Shown piece after piece: positions 25,283-31,840 of a DNA stretch of 64,000 nucleotides. Each line of letters begins with the position of its first letter. The first letter of the stretch is position 1. The translations under genes were made by a program, and so were the position numbers. Below the pieces are notes generated by a model, which worked only from the letters and a program-made list of their open reading frames with translations, was not told the origin of the DNA and searched no databases. The stretch is from assembly GCF_947497005.1 (NCBI RefSeq), contig NZ_CANMFF010000002.1, positions 372,001 through 436,000 of the forward strand. Reading direction: 5' to 3'. This stretch comes from an uncultured Ruegeria sp. (GTDB taxonomy: Bacteria; Pseudomonadota; Alphaproteobacteria; Rhodobacterales; Rhodobacteraceae).

Positions 25283-25579
25283 TCGTTTGAACCTTCTGAC
25301 ACCAGAGTGAACCATCCGGCGCAAATCGCGGGTCAGCTAGACCAAGTGAAGATGATTCTTTTTCACCTTAATCAGCATGGCGTTGGTTGATCAAATGCAG
25401 ATAACTATGCTGGTAAAAACGGGAATTCGTTTTGAGACTTCGAGATGTCGGCGGAAATTTGCCGTGGACGAAGCTGTGGAGGAATCGGGACCTGCAGATG
25501 GGCAGGCTTCCGCTGCACTCCGGTCAACAAAAAAGATTTCAAAAATGGCTTAAAAAGGGCGTTGACCTTCTATGGTAAC

Positions 25580-25626
25580 ATACGCCAAATTGTATGAGCC
25601 AACGAGAATGCCACAATATCTGGTGT
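25580..25626 (+). promoter_or_regulatory. Probable NrdR box pair upstream of nrdJ
   Basis: The stretch at 25611-25626 (CCACAATATCTGGTGT) matches the 16-base NrdR consensus acaCwAtATaTwGtgt at 13 positions. A weaker copy at 25580-25595 (ATACGCCAAATTGTAT) matches about ten. Their starts are 31 bases apart, three DNA turns, which is the spacing known for NrdR box pairs. Both are upstream of nrdJ, an expected NrdR target. The assignment is by eye. Confidence 0.5.
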
Positions 25627-25681
25627 CTAAACCGGAACAGGCAGCGGGCGAGGGTCGGATAAGCACAGAAGATTAACGTGC

Positions 25682-25700
25682 AACCGCAATAGCGGTTTTT
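25682..25700 (+). terminator. Terminator-like hairpin in the nrdJ leader
   Basis: A six-base-pair stem AACCGC/GCGGTT with loop AATA is followed directly by a T run (25696-25700). It lies 126 bases before the nrdJ start, where a terminator would cut the nrdJ transcript or end a short upstream RNA. Confidence 0.5.
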
Positions 25701-25825
25701 AAACTGTCTCAGACAGTGACCAATACCTTTGCGAGCTCTTCTCTGGGCGTTGCGGGCGACACCCTGCAACACAAGATTTGGTGTCGGGAATCGAAAATTG
25801 AGCTGTTTTAGTCAGGGCTGCGGAC

Positions 25826-28800
25826 ATGAAGATTGAGAGAAATTTTACCAAACCAGATCAGGATGCTTACGCAGAACTGGATTTTGTGTCCGCAACGTCT
25901 GAGATTCGAAATCCGGATGGTACAATTGTTTTTCGTCTCGACAATATCGAAGTGCCCTCAAGCTGGTCTCAGGTGGCCAGCGACGTGATCGCGCAGAAAT
26001 ACTTCCGCAAGGCTGGCGTTCCTTCCAAGCTGAAAAAAGTCAAAGAGAAAGACGTTCCCGAATTCCTGTGGCGCTCGGTCCCGGCAGAAGGTGCTGAGTT
26101 CGATGGGGAGACATCCTCGAAGCAAGTTTTCGACCGTCTGGCGGGTGCGTGGGCGTATTGGGGCTGGAAGGGTGGCTATTTCTCGACCGAGGATGACGCG
26201 CGCGCTTACTTTGACGAGATGCGCTATATGTTGGCGACGCAGCGCGCCGCGCCGAACAGCCCGCAGTGGTTCAACACCGGCCTGCACTGGGCTTACGGGA
26301 TCGACGGTCCTGCACAGGGGCACCATTACGTCGACTACAAGACCGGCAAGCTGACAAAATCGAAATCCGCTTACGAACATCCGCAGCCGCACGCGTGTTT
26401 CATTCAGTCCGTTGATGACGATCTGGTGAACGAAGGCGGCATCATGGATTTGTGGGTGCGCGAGGCGCGCCTGTTCAAATACGGCTCGGGTACCGGGACC
26501 AACTTCAGCCATCTGCGTGCAGAAGGCGAGGCGCTGTCGGGTGGCGGCAAGTCCTCGGGCCTGATGGGCTTTCTCAAGATCGGCGACCGCGCCGCTGGCG
26601 CGATCAAATCAGGCGGAACGACCCGTCGGGCAGCAAAGATGGTAATCGTCGATGCAGATCACCCAGACATCGAAAGATTCATCGAATGGAAGGTGATTGA
26701 AGAGCAGAAAGTGGCCTCGATCGTTGCCGGTTCGAAGATGCACGAGAAGATGCTGAACGGCATTTTCGAGGCCATTCGCACATGGGACGGTTCTGCTGAT
26801 GACGCTTATGATCCCAACGCAAACGACGCGCTGAAGAAGGCGGTTCGTGAGGCCAAAAAGGTCGCGATCCCTGAGACTTACATCAAGCGTGTTCTGGATT
26901 ACGCCAAGCAGGGTCACGACAGTATCGAATTCCCGACCTATGACACGGACTGGGATTCGGAAGCCTACAGCTCGGTCTCGGGTCAGAACTCGAACAACTC
27001 GATCCGCGTGACCAATGCGTTCCTGAACGCTGTCGAGAAAGACGCCGACTGGGAGTTGATCAACCGCACCGATGGCAAGGTCGCCCGCACCGTCAAAGCG
27101 CGCGATCTGTGGGAGAAGGTCGGCCACGCGGCCTGGGCCTGTGCCGATCCGGGTATTCAGTTCCACGACACCGTCAACGAGTGGCACACATGCCCCAAAG
27201 ACGGTGAGATTCGCGGCTCGAACCCGTGCTCGGAATATATGTTCCTGGACGACACGGCCTGTAACCTGGCGTCAATGAATCTGCTGACCTTCCTCAAGGA
27301 CGGTGAGTTCCAGGCGGCCGATTACATGCACGCCTCGCGTCTATGGACCCTGACGCTGGAAATCTCGGTGACCATGGCGCAGTTCCCGTCGAAGGAAATC
27401 GCGCAGCTGTCTTACGACTTCCGCACGCTGGGTCTGGGATATGCCAATATCGGCGGCCTGCTGATGAATATGAGCTACAGCTATGACTCGGATGAGGGCC
27501 GGGCGATCTGTGGTGCACTGACCGCGATCATGACCGGTGTGGCTTATGCAACCTCGGCCGAGATCGCCGGTGAGCTTGGCCCGTTCAAAGGTTATGAGCG
27601 CAACGCCGACCACATGCTGCGTGTCATCCGTAACCATCGCCGTGCGTCGCAAGGTGTGACCGAGGGTTATGAGAAGCTGGCGGTGAAGCCGGTGCCTTTG
27701 GACCACGGCAACTGCCCGGATAAACGTCTGGTTGATCTGGCCATGTCGGCCTGGGATGAAGCGCTGAGCCTTGGTGAGAAGAACGGTTATCGCAACGCGC
27801 AGGCCACCGTGATCGCCCCAACAGGCACCATCGGTCTGGTGATGGATTGCGACACCACTGGAATCGAACCGGACTTTGCGCTGGTCAAATTCAAGAAGCT
27901 GGCCGGTGGCGGCTACTTCAAGATCATAAACCGCTCGGTGCCTTCGGCGCTGGAAAAGCTGGGATATTCCTCGGCGCAGATCGAAGAGATCGTGGGCTAC
28001 GCGGTCGGCCACGGCACCATCGGCAACGCGCCGGGGATCAACCACACCTCACTGACCGGTCATGGTTTTGGTCCGAATGAGTTGGCCAAAGTGGACGCCG
28101 CGCTGGAAAGCGCATTCGACATCCGCTTCGTCTTCAACCAATGGACCCTGGGCGAGGACTTCTGCACCGGGGTATTGGGCATCCCGGCCACCAAGCTGAA
28201 CGATCCAACTTTCGATCTGCTGCGCCATCTGGGGTTCACCAAAGCGGATATCGACGCAGCCAACGACCACGTTTGCGGAACCATGACGCTGGAAGGGGCG
28301 CCGCACCTGAAGGAAGAGCATTATTCGATCTTCGACTGCGCCAACCCGTGCGGCAAGAAAGGTAAGCGTTTCCTTGGGGTTGATAGCCACATCACCATGA
28401 TGGCAGCGGCGCAAAGCTTCATCTCGGGTGCGATCAGTAAAACGATCAACATGCCGAATGACGCGACCATCGAGGATTGCCAGAAGGCCTATGAGCTCAG
28501 CTGGTCGCTGGGTGTGAAAGCTAACGCGCTCTATCGTGACGGCTCGAAACTGTCGCAACCACTGGCGGCAGCGCTGGTCGAGGATGATGACGAAGCGGCG
28601 GAAATTCTGGAAAGCGGTTCGTCTCAGGAAAAAGCCGTCGTTCTAGCCGAGAAGGTGATCGAAAAGGTTGTGGTCAAAGAGATCATTCGCAGCCATCGTG
28701 AGAAACTGCCGCATCGTCGCAAGGGCTATACCCAGAAGGCAATCGTTGGTGGCCACAAAGTATACCTGCGGACCGGTGAATTCGAAGACGGTCAACTGGG

Positions 28801-29455
28801 CGAGATTTTCATTGACATGCACAAGGAAGGCGCAGGCTTCCGGGCAATGATGAATAACTTTGCCATCGCGGTCTCGGTCGGCCTGCAATACGGTGTGCCG
28901 TTGGAAGAGTTTGTCGACGCCTTCACCTTCACCAAGTTCGAACCGGCAGGGATGGTGCAGGGCAACGACTCGATCAAGAACGCGACGTCGATCCTTGATT
29001 ATATCTTCCGCGAACTGGCCGTGTCTTATCTGGACCGCACCGATCTGGCCCATGTGAAACCCGAAGGCGCAAGCTTTGATGATTTGGGTCGTGGCGAGGA
29101 AGAAGGTGTCTCGAACGTCTCGGAGATCAGTGAAACTGCGGCGTCCAAGTCCTTGGAAGTGCTGAAACAAATCAGCTCAACCGGCTATCTGCGCAAGCGC
29201 CTGCCGCAAGACCTGGCCGTGTTCAACGCAGGGCAAGCTGAACTGAACGGCTTGGCTGAGGCCGCGCCTCAGTTTGAGGCCAAGACTGAGATGACCGTTG
29301 TGGGGGAAGTGTCTACAGGAATGGACGCCCGTACCAAAGCCAAGATGCAGGGCTACGAAGGTGACCCTTGCGGCGAATGCGGCAACTACACGCTGGTGCG
29401 CAACGGCACTTGCATGAAGTGCAACACCTGCGGCGCGACAAGCGGGTGTAGTTAA
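25826..29455 (+). CDS. nrdJ: Vitamin B12-dependent (class II) ribonucleotide reductase
   Basis: A 1209-residue monomeric-type adenosylcobalamin-dependent reductase that makes deoxyribonucleotides with or without oxygen. Recognisable parts are the N-terminal region with [16 protein letters not shown], the active-site region [23 protein letters not shown] (radical-site and redox cysteines), the [19 protein letters not shown] segment, and a C-terminal zinc-ribbon tail with [23 protein letters not shown] and a final GC. The length, longer than the 700-residue Lactobacillus type, fits the proteobacterial form. The ATG at 25826 has no strong ribosome site but gives the family N terminus. A long leader with NrdR-like boxes precedes it, and hairpins follow. 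Confidence 0.96.
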
Positions 29456-29999
29456 AGAATAACGCCCCGGCACCCCGGGGCGTAGGGGTCGGACGCTGCC
29501 CTTGGTTACCGACCCCGACGAATACGGAGTAAAGGTTTGAGACTTACCAAATGACCTTTCTCCACTCGGCCGACATGCCCGTGTTGGCCGGGAACAGGGT
29601 GGGGCGGAATATTTGCTCTTTCCCACTCTTTCACGGGGCGGGTGCGCTCGCCCCATGCGCAGTCCAGGCCGCAGGCAAAAAAATACCGGGCGGTCAACGA
29701 AATGAGCCTGGAAGGCGAAACTGACAGGGGGCTTCGGCCCCCTTTCTTTTTTGCGTTTCCGAGTCGCCCAAAATAAGCGCCACTCTGCCGGATCGGAGAT
29801 GTTTCGTCGGGCGAGACCCGCCGACACTCGGCGTACCCGTTTTTTCCGGCGGTCTATCGCAAACCCGACTCGGCCAAACACGCAAAGATTGGCGTGAATT
29901 TTCAAAAATCGCGTAATGCGGGTGACGTTTATACCTGCCTTGGTGTTTCTGGGTCCTGTCTAGACGCAAACATAATCAACTTGTTCAGGAGGCATCGAA
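29456..29999. other. Hairpin-rich noncoding region after nrdJ
   Basis: A 544-base region without a credible gene; frames over it are on the minus strand and have skewed composition. From 29462 to 29752 at least five hairpins follow one another on the plus strand and the last is an intrinsic terminator. Stems: 29462-29470/29475-29483 (9 bp), 29485-29492/29509-29516 (8 bp), 29526-29536/29554-29563 (10 bp, one bulge), 29567-29574/29583-29590 (8 bp), and 29635-29640/29649-29654 (6 bp). It may be a long structured 3' untranslated region or an RNA gene. The rest, 29753-29999, should contain the promoter of the EF-hand gene, whose ribosome site is CAGGAGG. Confidence 0.6.
29726..29752 (+). terminator. 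Strong intrinsic terminator
   Basis: A GGGGGC stem closed by the stable TTCG tetraloop (arms 29726-29732 and 29737-29743) is followed by TTTCTTTTTT. It ends whatever transcript crosses the hairpin-rich region after nrdJ. Confidence 0.9.
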
Positions 30000-30245
30000 A
30001 TGAAACCGCACTATTTGATAGGGCTATCCATCGCAGCTTTGGCCGTGCCGGGCGTGGTTCTGGCCCAATCCGCCGCCGACGCCAACGGTGATGGCGTTTT
30101 GACAATCGAGGAAGTTCAGTCCGTCGTGCCAGAGGTCGACGCCGATACATTTTCGGTCATGGATGCCAACGGCGACGGCGCGTTGGACGCGGATGAAATT
30201 GCGATCGCGCAGGAAGCGGGATTGCTGCCACCCAGCAATGGGTAG
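30000..30245 (+). CDS. Small EF-hand calcium-binding protein, exported
   Basis: An 81-residue protein with a signal peptide (MKPHYLIGLSIAALAVPGVVLA, probable cleavage before QS) and two EF-hand loops: DANGDGVLTIEE and DANGDGALDADE, each with the 12-residue Asp/Asn/Gly/Glu pattern. Such proteins bind calcium in the periplasm; no partner is evident. The ATG at 30000 follows a good CAGGAGG site. It ends 13 bases before a strong bidirectional terminator and converges on the MttB-family gene. Confidence 0.85.
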   Translation: MKPHYLIGLSIAALAVPGVVLAQSAADANGDGVLTIEEVQSVVPEVDADTFSVMDANGDGALDADEIAIAQEAGLLPPSNG

Positions 30246-30257
30246 CGCTTAGAAAAC

Positions 30258-30288
30258 GGGCGGCCCGATGTATTTCGGGCCGCCCTTT
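30258..30288. terminator. Bidirectional intrinsic terminator
   Basis: A perfect 11-bp stem (30258-30268 with 30275-30285) with a six-base loop lies between two convergent genes. It is followed by TTT on the plus strand and by GTTTTCT on the minus strand, so it can end the EF-hand and MttB-family transcripts. Confidence 0.9.
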
Positions 30289-30295
30289 CATTACT

Positions 30296-31840
30296 TTACG
30301 CGGGCAAGTGAATGTTGAACCTTTCGCGAAGTTTCGCATCCAGAAGCGGGTCGAACTTTGCAACAGAAGGCGCGGACAGGATTTCTTCCTTGCGTGCTGT
30401 TGCCTTCTCCACCAGATCTGGTTTGCCAAGCTCAACCCATTCCTTGGGCGAAGATCGGTCGCCAAATGTCGGGTAGACGTAATCCGCCTGCATTCGGCTC
30501 AGCGTCGCATCTGTTCCCAGATAATGGCCGGGGCCACCCATGCATACCGAAGCAATCTGATCCAGCGCCAAGGTTTCATCGGTGACCTCGATCCCGCGAA
30601 CGCAACGCTGCGCCTGTCCGATCAAATCGTCACTCAGGATGAGGCTTTCAAAGCAGAAACCCAGCAGGGATGCGTGCATGCCAGCAGCCTCGTAAACCAT
30701 GTTCAGCCCAGACAGGCCCGCCATCACGTTCGAACACATCTGCTCCCATCCGGCCTGCATGTCGGGCAGCTTCGAATCTGACGCACCGGCTGCTGCGCCT
30801 CCCGGCAAATCATAGAATCGGTGCATCTGTGCGCAACCAGCCGTCAGCAAGGCTTGTTCGCCTGAACCGATGGACATTGCGCCTGTTCGCAGATCCAGAC
30901 CAAAAGGCCAGGTGCCAAAAACTGCAGGAGCCCCGGGGCTTACAGCATTTACATAAACCAAACCCGCAAGGCATTCTGCGGTGGCTTGGGCGATTGCTCC
31001 GGCAATGGTCGATGGCGCGGTGGCCCCGGCCATCCCCGCTGACAGCAGCAGCACCGGCATCCCGGCCTTTATGCACTCCTCCATCACTTCGCAGCTTTCG
31101 GTCGCGAATTTCATCGGTGGAACGACGAAGCAATTCGAGTTCGACACAAAAGGGCGCGCGCGATATTTGTCTTCGCCGCCTGCGATCATGTAGATCATCT
31201 CCATCGAGGGGGCGACGTGGCTGGGTTCGGTAAAGGACGTGCCGAGATGTTTGAACGTACCGGAACAGCCAGCGTAAATCGTGTTCAGGTCCATTTCTAG
31301 GTTGTCCGCGATATCGCGACACACCATTGGGCGTTGAACAAAGTGAATATTATCAAGCTGTTGGCAGATGCGCGCGGCATCGTGCAGGTCTTGCACGGTT
31401 GAGTCTCGATATTCGCGTCCATGAACGTCGACCATGGAAACGGCAGCGCCAGCCGTGCCGTAATGTACTTTGGTACCCGCCAGTTCCAGGTCGTTTTTAC
31501 CGTCGCGGCTGTACAAAGTGACCGACCGGTTCGCTTTTGCAATCGTATCTTCAACAAGGGCGCGTGGAAAACGGATACGGCCGTCGTCACCCAAGGTGCA
31601 GCCCGCATTGATCAGGTAATCAATTCCGCTTTGCGGGGCGTCGGCAAGACCAATGGTCTCAAGTGCGGTCAGTGCCGCGTGGTGGATGCGTTCGATCTGT
31701 GTCTGGGTCAGAACGTTCAGAACGCCGCCTTCCATTCCAGGGCGGACGGGGCGCAGATGTTCTGGCAGTGCGGATGCGCGGGCGGCGCGACGCGCGGCGC
31801 GTCCACCACTGCGCGTAGTGCTGCGGGTTTGGTCGTTCAT
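30296..31840 (-). CDS. Trimethylamine methyltransferase (MttB) family protein
   Basis: A 514-residue protein of the MttB superfamily. The reading frame is uninterrupted, so it has no in-frame amber codon and is not of the pyrrolysine type; it belongs to the wider group that includes glycine betaine methyltransferases (MtgB). Segments such as GTKVHYGTAGAAVSMVD, ADNLEMDLNTIYAG and GTWPFGLDLRTGAMSIGSGEQALL are typical. Such enzymes move a methyl group from a quaternary or tertiary amine onto a corrinoid protein. Which methyl donor it uses is unknown. A corrinoid protein lies 26 kb away but none adjoins it. It stands alone, and starts with a basic, Arg-rich tail. Confidence 0.82.
   Translation of the reverse strand: MNDQTRSTTRSGGRAARRAARASALPEHLRPVRPGMEGGVLNVLTQTQIERIHHAALTALETIGLADAPQSGIDYLINAGCTLGDDGRIRFPRALVEDTIAKANRSVTLYSRDGKNDLELAGTKVHYGTAGAAVSMVDVHGREYRDSTVQDLHDAARICQQLDNIHFVQRPMVCRDIADNLEMDLNTIYAGCSGTFKHLGTSFTEPSHVAPSMEMIYMIAGGEDKYRARPFVSNSNCFVVPPMKFATESCEVMEECIKAGMPVLLLSAGMAGATAPSTIAGAIAQATAECLAGLVYVNAVSPGAPAVFGTWPFGLDLRTGAMSIGSGEQALLTAGCAQMHRFYDLPGGAAAGASDSKLPDMQAGWEQMCSNVMAGLSGLNMVYEAAGMHASLLGFCFESLILSDDLIGQAQRCVRGIEVTDETLALDQIASVCMGGPGHYLGTDATLSRMQADYVYPTFGDRSSPKEWVELGKPDLVEKATARKEEILSAPSVAKFDPLLDAKLRERFNIHLPA

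Follow-up and report, generated by a model that had tools for sequence, protein, structure and literature searches.

Does a run of hairpins behind a bacterial gene represent only an elaborate transcript end, or an RNA with a role of its own? The question is raised by a 64,000-nucleotide (nt) stretch from an uncultured Ruegeria sp. (assembly GCF_947497005.1, contig NZ_CANMFF010000002.1, positions 372,001–436,000 of the forward strand), which is termed the window here and to whose numbering all coordinates refer. It contains an open reading frame (ORF) taken to be nrdJ, the gene for an adenosylcobalamin-dependent (class II) ribonucleotide reductase. An initial annotation placed serial hairpins and a terminator at 29456–29752, directly behind this gene, and offered two readings: a long structured 3′ untranslated region (3′ UTR) or a small RNA (sRNA) gene with its own promoter. 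The placement is correct because the element begins past the nrdJ stop codon (29455) and ends at the U-run of a TTCG-loop terminator. The analyses described below indicate that the element is almost certainly a structured 3′-UTR RNA of the nrdJ transcript. Judged from sequence, there is about an even chance that it acts in trans as an sRNA, and the complete reading, a 3′-UTR RNA released as a trans-acting sRNA, is equally finely balanced.

The part of the element that is common beyond the genus spans 29633–29752 and comprises two stem-loops, P1 and P2, and the terminator (Table 1). Covariance-model searches for this core covered the order and the class. A model built from 37 distinct sequences and applied with strict filters recovered the core from 282 of the 390 genomes searched in the order, which represent 106 of its 139 sampled genera. 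Each of these genomes has a single match except for G168, G370, and G399, which have two each according to the match table. A second covariance model matched 6 of 385 genomes in a class sample, of which five belong to the family and one, a marginal match (E 0.0067), lies outside it. About 380 genomes of this sample are from outside the family, as judged by the order of the listed rows, and no family member was missed thereby. The RNA is conserved throughout Rhodobacteraceae and is nearly absent beyond it in the class sample.

Covariation carries the case for the core. Among 87 distinct sequences, 99.2% of pair cells hold standard pairs and 13 of the 22 pairs change on both sides; cells with such double changes number 121, compared with 25.1 in shuffles and no more than 25 when pairing partners are slid. 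Because the 87-sequence alignment was built to fit the structure, it is biased towards covariation; an alignment by sequence alone gives both-side changes in 9 of 22 pairs. Core conservation in this test is inflated because loci of the named set (at least 80) were chosen by exact core letters; locus sets also overlap (e.g., L123 and L227 are apparently the same place). All eight P1 pairs are altered on both sides in some family sequence, and the P1 loop reads TGCG in 80 of the 87 sequences. The inner helix of P2 is nearly invariant, so covariation provides no test of those pairs. Compensatory changes exceed both shuffled and slid controls, and the core is a conserved structured RNA rather than a set of chance hairpins. 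The initial annotation had asked whether the stems are conserved and covary in Rhodobacterales, and had taken a lack of conservation as evidence to the contrary; they are conserved, with the compensatory changes described above.

The same alignment orients the RNA. G-U cells outnumber A-C cells by 140 to 4, an imbalance that places the RNA on the nrdJ strand and rules out the antisense strand as the transcript. In the consensus, the best-kept bases are the P2 inner stem and loop CGCAGGCA, the closing strand GGGCGGU, a GAGCC junction, and the tail GCGAAACU. P2 has an A-rich loop and a 3′-side bulge of ~12–15 nt. Core length ranges from 87 to 98 nt in single-base steps, which disfavours a short conserved peptide as the conserved feature.

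Folding energy agrees with the remark in the initial annotation that this is more structure than a usual 3′ end contains. The minimum free energy (MFE) of 29440–29760 is −150.3 kcal/mol, compared with −124.2 ± 4.4 kcal/mol for 100 dinucleotide shuffles, none of which is as low (z −5.9), and removal of the terminator (29456–29722) leaves z at −4.8. The opposite strand of the element folds less well (z −3.2). Serial hairpins followed by a terminator are indeed present, but the count of five stems was too low because seven stem-loops precede the terminator in the Ruegeria form.

Table 1. Features of the nrdJ 3′ region in the window (pairs of intervals are the two strands of a helix)
Feature	Position	Strand	Basis or remark
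nrdJ	25826–29455	+	ORF of 1209 amino acids (aa); gene whose message the RNA ends
Whole element, Ruegeria form	29456–29752	+	Seven stem-loops and intrinsic terminator, from nrdJ stop to U-run
Hairpin H1	29462–29483	+	9 base pairs (bp); MFE fold
Hairpin H2	29485–29516	+	Outer stem has compensatory changes in the genus (alignment columns 33–61, 34–60)
Hairpin H3	29526–29563	+	Least conserved stem
Hairpin H4	29565–29592	+	MFE fold
Hairpin H5	29596–29629	+	GGGTGGGG...CCCACTCT; MFE fold
P1	29635–29654	+	8 bp, UGCG (UNCG-type) tetraloop; covariation
P2 core stem-loop	29658–29717	+	Bulged; covariation and consensus
P2 outer CG/CG	29658–29659 with 29716–29717	+	
P2 covarying stem	29663–29669 with 29706–29712	+	
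P2 inner CGC/GCG	29670–29672 with 29690–29692	+	Nearly invariant
Tail GCGAAACU	29715–29722	+	Conserved; links core and terminator; 3′ five bases unpaired in model
Intrinsic terminator	29726–29752	+	GGGGGC-TTCG-GCCCCC and U-run; stem 29726–29743; sequence differs among genera

Within Ruegeria, conservation extends over the whole element. A DNA search covered 101 genomes and recovered the element from all 53 remaining members of the genus and from 5 of 7 genomes that belong to other genera of the family; three matches outside the family (G075, G084, and G099) are 24–28 nt long and are taken as chance. The nrdJ end is present in all 59 fetched loci. The element forms one block of 294–303 nt 3′ of the nrdJ stop in 25 of 30 same-genus loci, and in the other five a gene-bearing insert separates the stop from an intact block of ~297 nt. 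Pairwise identity averages 88.3% in the block (25 loci), whereas the final 300 nt of nrdJ average 81.7% and the 200 nt downstream of the block 56.6% (30 loci each). A non-coding block is thus better kept than the adjoining coding sequence and has sharp borders. H3 varies most, with one pair (alignment columns 78–114) altered on both sides in 10 of 30 same-genus sequences and another (77–115) broken in 7 of 30.

What lies upstream of the core is nearly always nrdJ. It is found on the same strand, 38–729 nt before the core, in 75 of 80 named loci (from at least 80 matches), and the other five are truncated by the limit of the retrieved sequence. An overlapping, non-random set of 65 genomes, namely those listed in both the core and nrdJ tables, gives the same arrangement in 64, and the last has nrdJ and core on different contigs. 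Of the 390 genomes searched in the order, 382 have a relative of nrdJ (E ≤ 1e-50), and none of the eight without such a match is among the 282 with the core. A long structured 3′ UTR, the first of the two readings originally offered, is thus supported wherever the locus is readable: the RNA follows nrdJ on its strand.

Could the RNA instead be an independent sRNA gene, transcribed from a promoter of its own within the nrdJ end or the spacer? This is improbable, although several observations can be cited in its favour. Synonymous variation in nrdJ reaches its minimum over the final ~20 codons (positions 29381–29434, codons 1186–1203; residual −0.48, with a standard deviation of windows of 0.14, across 42 genes), the ~297-nt unit remains intact behind inserted genes in five of 30 same-genus loci, and loci with H5 have conserved bases upstream of P1. 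Codon bias could account for the dip at the nrdJ end, as could a processing site or a promoter; the dip is not unique, as a further low stretch occurs at codons 1020–1041, and some genomes without the RNA carry the same end codons. A possible GGUGC/GCACC hairpin is visible by eye within 29381–29434. The conserved nrdJ end was also compared by eye with a sigma-54-like site, but the spacing is wrong and this reading was dropped; a consensus scan of 25500–30300 found no plus-strand sigma-70-like site near the element.

Alignment on P1 bears more directly on a separate promoter. Of 131 loci, 73 entered this analysis, which left out any that are numbered below L057 or lack a recognised UNCG hairpin. 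Where H5 is absent (39 loci), positions −50 to −11 before P1 hold a mean of 0.08 bits per column, close to the small-sample bias of 0.06, and the last ten bases before P1 hold 0.47. Values so near sampling bias make a promoter fixed relative to P1 unlikely in these loci, and the own-promoter reading of the initial annotation is unsupported there. P1 begins 7–8 nt past the nrdJ stop in L153, L168, L141, and L164, and it follows the ends of unlike genes (nrdJ in L153, a peptidase gene in L231). In many genomes, small genes lie between nrdJ and the RNA; among 33 long-spacer loci, 15 have an ORF whose homologue in a second locus scores 90 bits or more, and in all 15 this ORF is on the nrdJ strand, by a criterion set after the spacers were inspected. 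Close spacing of P1 to the nrdJ stop, near-absence of conserved sequence before P1 in loci without H5, and same-strand spacer genes together suggest that the RNA ends the nrdJ transcript.

Several observations weigh against this reading, in whole or in part. The core with its terminator (118–126 nt), folded alone, reaches z −2.2 in the window and only −0.7 to −3.9 in eight relatives; these energies are modestly beyond shuffles, so the case for the core rests on covariation and not on energy. If these values for the nine sequences are taken with the GC-rich sequence, the region might be regarded as an ordinary terminator with chance GC-rich hairpins, a view whose probability is negligible because it is refuted by covariation, order-wide conservation, and the z of −4.8 for the whole element without its terminator. 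Sequence resembling H5 (loose pattern) lies 5′ of P1 in 34 of the 73 aligned loci, and these hold 0.7–1.25 bits per column upstream of P1. H5 itself can explain that conservation; a promoter is possible in these loci, and at a varying place it would escape the alignment. Of the 33 long-spacer loci, six give their higher score for the minus strand, none of them reaching 77 bits, and six lack a homologue. Readthrough is uncertain in cassette loci (L012 and L020, for instance), where a hairpin seen by eye stands directly 3′ of nrdJ. The main text of a study on UTR-derived sRNAs in Rhodobacter sphaeroides makes no mention of nrdJ (PMC8625941). Moreover, 108 of 390 genomes gave no core match under the strict filters, and six of the eight nrdJ-bearing, core-negative loci read by eye (those with listed nrdJ rows) have nothing that resembles the element; in two loci where a gene follows nrdJ (L217 and L219), absence is based on the covariance-model genome search. 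The RNA accompanies nrdJ, but nrdJ can thus dispense with the RNA.

Possible intermediate states are visible by eye among genomes without a model match. L216 (G201) has hairpins like H1 and H2 behind nrdJ with the core missing, and L214 (G193) has a degenerate core-like remnant downstream of nrdJ. This remnant and these partial hairpins suggest stepwise loss.

How the RNA functions is a separate matter. sRNAs derived from 3′ UTRs arise as discrete RNAs by processing or from an internal promoter, and they pair with other messenger RNAs (mRNAs), usually via Hfq or ProQ. The element lies at an mRNA 3′ end and shares its terminator, an assignment made by position only, that is, by its place behind nrdJ on the same strand with a terminator-like end. 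In the proposed mechanism, transcription of nrdJ would continue to the terminator, after which a ribonuclease would trim the message near P1. A stable piece with P1, P2, and the terminator (~120 nt) may then persist as an sRNA; retention of the upstream hairpins would extend it to ~300 nt in Ruegeria. Its conserved unpaired parts, namely the A-rich loop and the tail GCGAAACU, could contact an RNA chaperone and target mRNAs; the tail may serve as a seed or as a protein site. The amount of sRNA would then track expression of the B12-dependent ribonucleotide reductase.

The strongest competitor is a purely cis-acting 3′-UTR element, in which P1–P2 would protect or destabilise the nrdJ mRNA, possibly by binding a protein or small ligand, without action on other mRNAs. 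We regard this as a real if lesser possibility. Linkage to nrdJ agrees with it, as do the eight genomes that have neither an nrdJ match nor a core match, and when genes are inserted the RNA stays behind them at the terminator. Mere protection, however, should not need invariant loop and junction bases, and by eye plain hairpins replace the RNA behind nrdJ in L212 and L213. The terminator sequence is also variable, and inspection by eye reveals no conserved pairing with the core that could act as an antiterminator. Since a stabilising 3′ hairpin would have no need for loop, junction, and tail bases to be the best kept, an sRNA is favoured over a stabiliser of the nrdJ mRNA. A more specific and rather unlikely proposal is that the core is a 3′-end aptamer whose target, a ligand or a protein, is linked to nucleotide reduction (for example, the B12 cofactor, the reductase itself, or a deoxynucleotide). 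Binding would then determine the fate of the nrdJ message: retention, degradation, or cleavage that frees a regulatory RNA.

With its conserved fold immediately ahead of an intrinsic terminator, the RNA is also riboswitch-like and might be considered a leader of the downstream gene that acts via the terminator. This is very improbable because the next ORFs, chosen mechanically, fall into 40 clusters across 59 loci, 32 on the same strand and 27 on the opposite strand; such diverse genes on both strands do not share a leader.

Comparison with catalogued RNAs gave no identity. A scan of the window with the 4227 models of Rfam 15 at gathering score returned two transfer RNAs and no match at the element, and a lax scan near the element gave four matches (best E 0.23) that were judged to be chance. 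Eleven relatives searched against Rfam at E up to 0.1 gave three matches, none at the element, and plasmid and phage collections held only partial matches (20–27% of the query). The initial annotation had found no signature of transfer-messenger RNA, RNase P, signal recognition particle RNA, or 6S RNA, and the covariance scans agree. The genome has a single 6S match, which is located away from the element (G000 C1:92405–92556) and at 31.1 bits falls below the cut-off of 46.4.

RNAs of this kind, that is, 3′-UTR RNAs that possibly yield sRNAs, are already known, including from R. sphaeroides. SorX and UdsC of that species resemble the present RNA in their location at mRNA 3′ ends and in their bacterial family, but their parent genes, as described, are other than nrdJ (PMC8625941, PMC9779115). 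The HRC-28-1 motif of Polynucleobacter is likewise structured (six stems) with an apparent intrinsic terminator, and its authors consider it a possible 3′-UTR element; it differs, by its description only, in its bacteria, its upstream gene, and its 33 examples (PMC8632094). HRC-8-4, a structured motif reported by comparative genomics only in Rhodobacterales, sits between ccoNOQP and ccoGHIS rather than behind nrdJ and is set apart by location alone (PMC8632094); the supplement of that paper may contain further Rhodobacterales motifs. In Ruegeria pomeroyi, RNA sequencing identified 99 sRNAs, 30 of them trans-sRNAs, and the present RNA could be one of these 30 (PMC4809877). 6S RNA, which is structured and similar in size, has also been reported there (PMC4809877); the present element has no 6S match. 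No publication on an RNA at the nrdJ 3′ end was found within the texts that could be searched, including PMC5107571 and PMC2864571, and PMC11109978 and PMC6429828 contain no occurrence of the searched terms. Within the limits of Rfam 15 and this literature, the RNA family seems to be unlisted.

The element thus appears to represent an RNA family that is unlisted and has a fixed partner gene, and it occurs in 106 of 139 sampled genera of the order. If it acts in trans, other genes would be coupled to the supply of a vitamin and DNA precursors. The RNA is single-copy in nearly every positive genome and P1–P2 is short, so deletion tests should be straightforward, and genera without it provide natural controls.

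The nrdJ 3′ end has other recurrent occupants. By eye, a leader-like stretch of ~200 nt (GAAATTGAGGGTTGGGG...CCCC..., GGAAATACA) follows nrdJ and precedes small variable proteins; it lies between the nrdJ stop and the RNA in L012, L019, L020, L025, L221, L224, L226, L228, L233, and L234, and also behind nrdJ in L217, which has no RNA match. The proteins that follow it include DUF2188 in L019 (Pfam), a Lys/Ala-rich protein of 47 aa, and others without a Pfam match. The stretch has no Rfam match; it may represent a mobile cassette or another structured RNA. Genes for IrrE-like M78 metallopeptidases occur in the spacer between nrdJ and the RNA in L057 (Pfam), in L222 and L225 (by homology to L057), and in L110, L220, and L231 (by eye). 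Their presence at the same insertion site makes the nrdJ 3′ end look like a hotspot for small accessory genes.

Rfam PYLIS_3, the mttB pyrrolysine insertion sequence, scores above cut-off near nrdJ in L131 (1562–1661), L020 (469–568), and L025 (466–565), and below cut-off in L019 and L012. The window gene at 30296–31840 encodes what, from its sequence, looks like an MttB-family protein. Between two convergent ORFs, a perfect 11-bp hairpin at 30258–30285 scores as a terminator on both strands.
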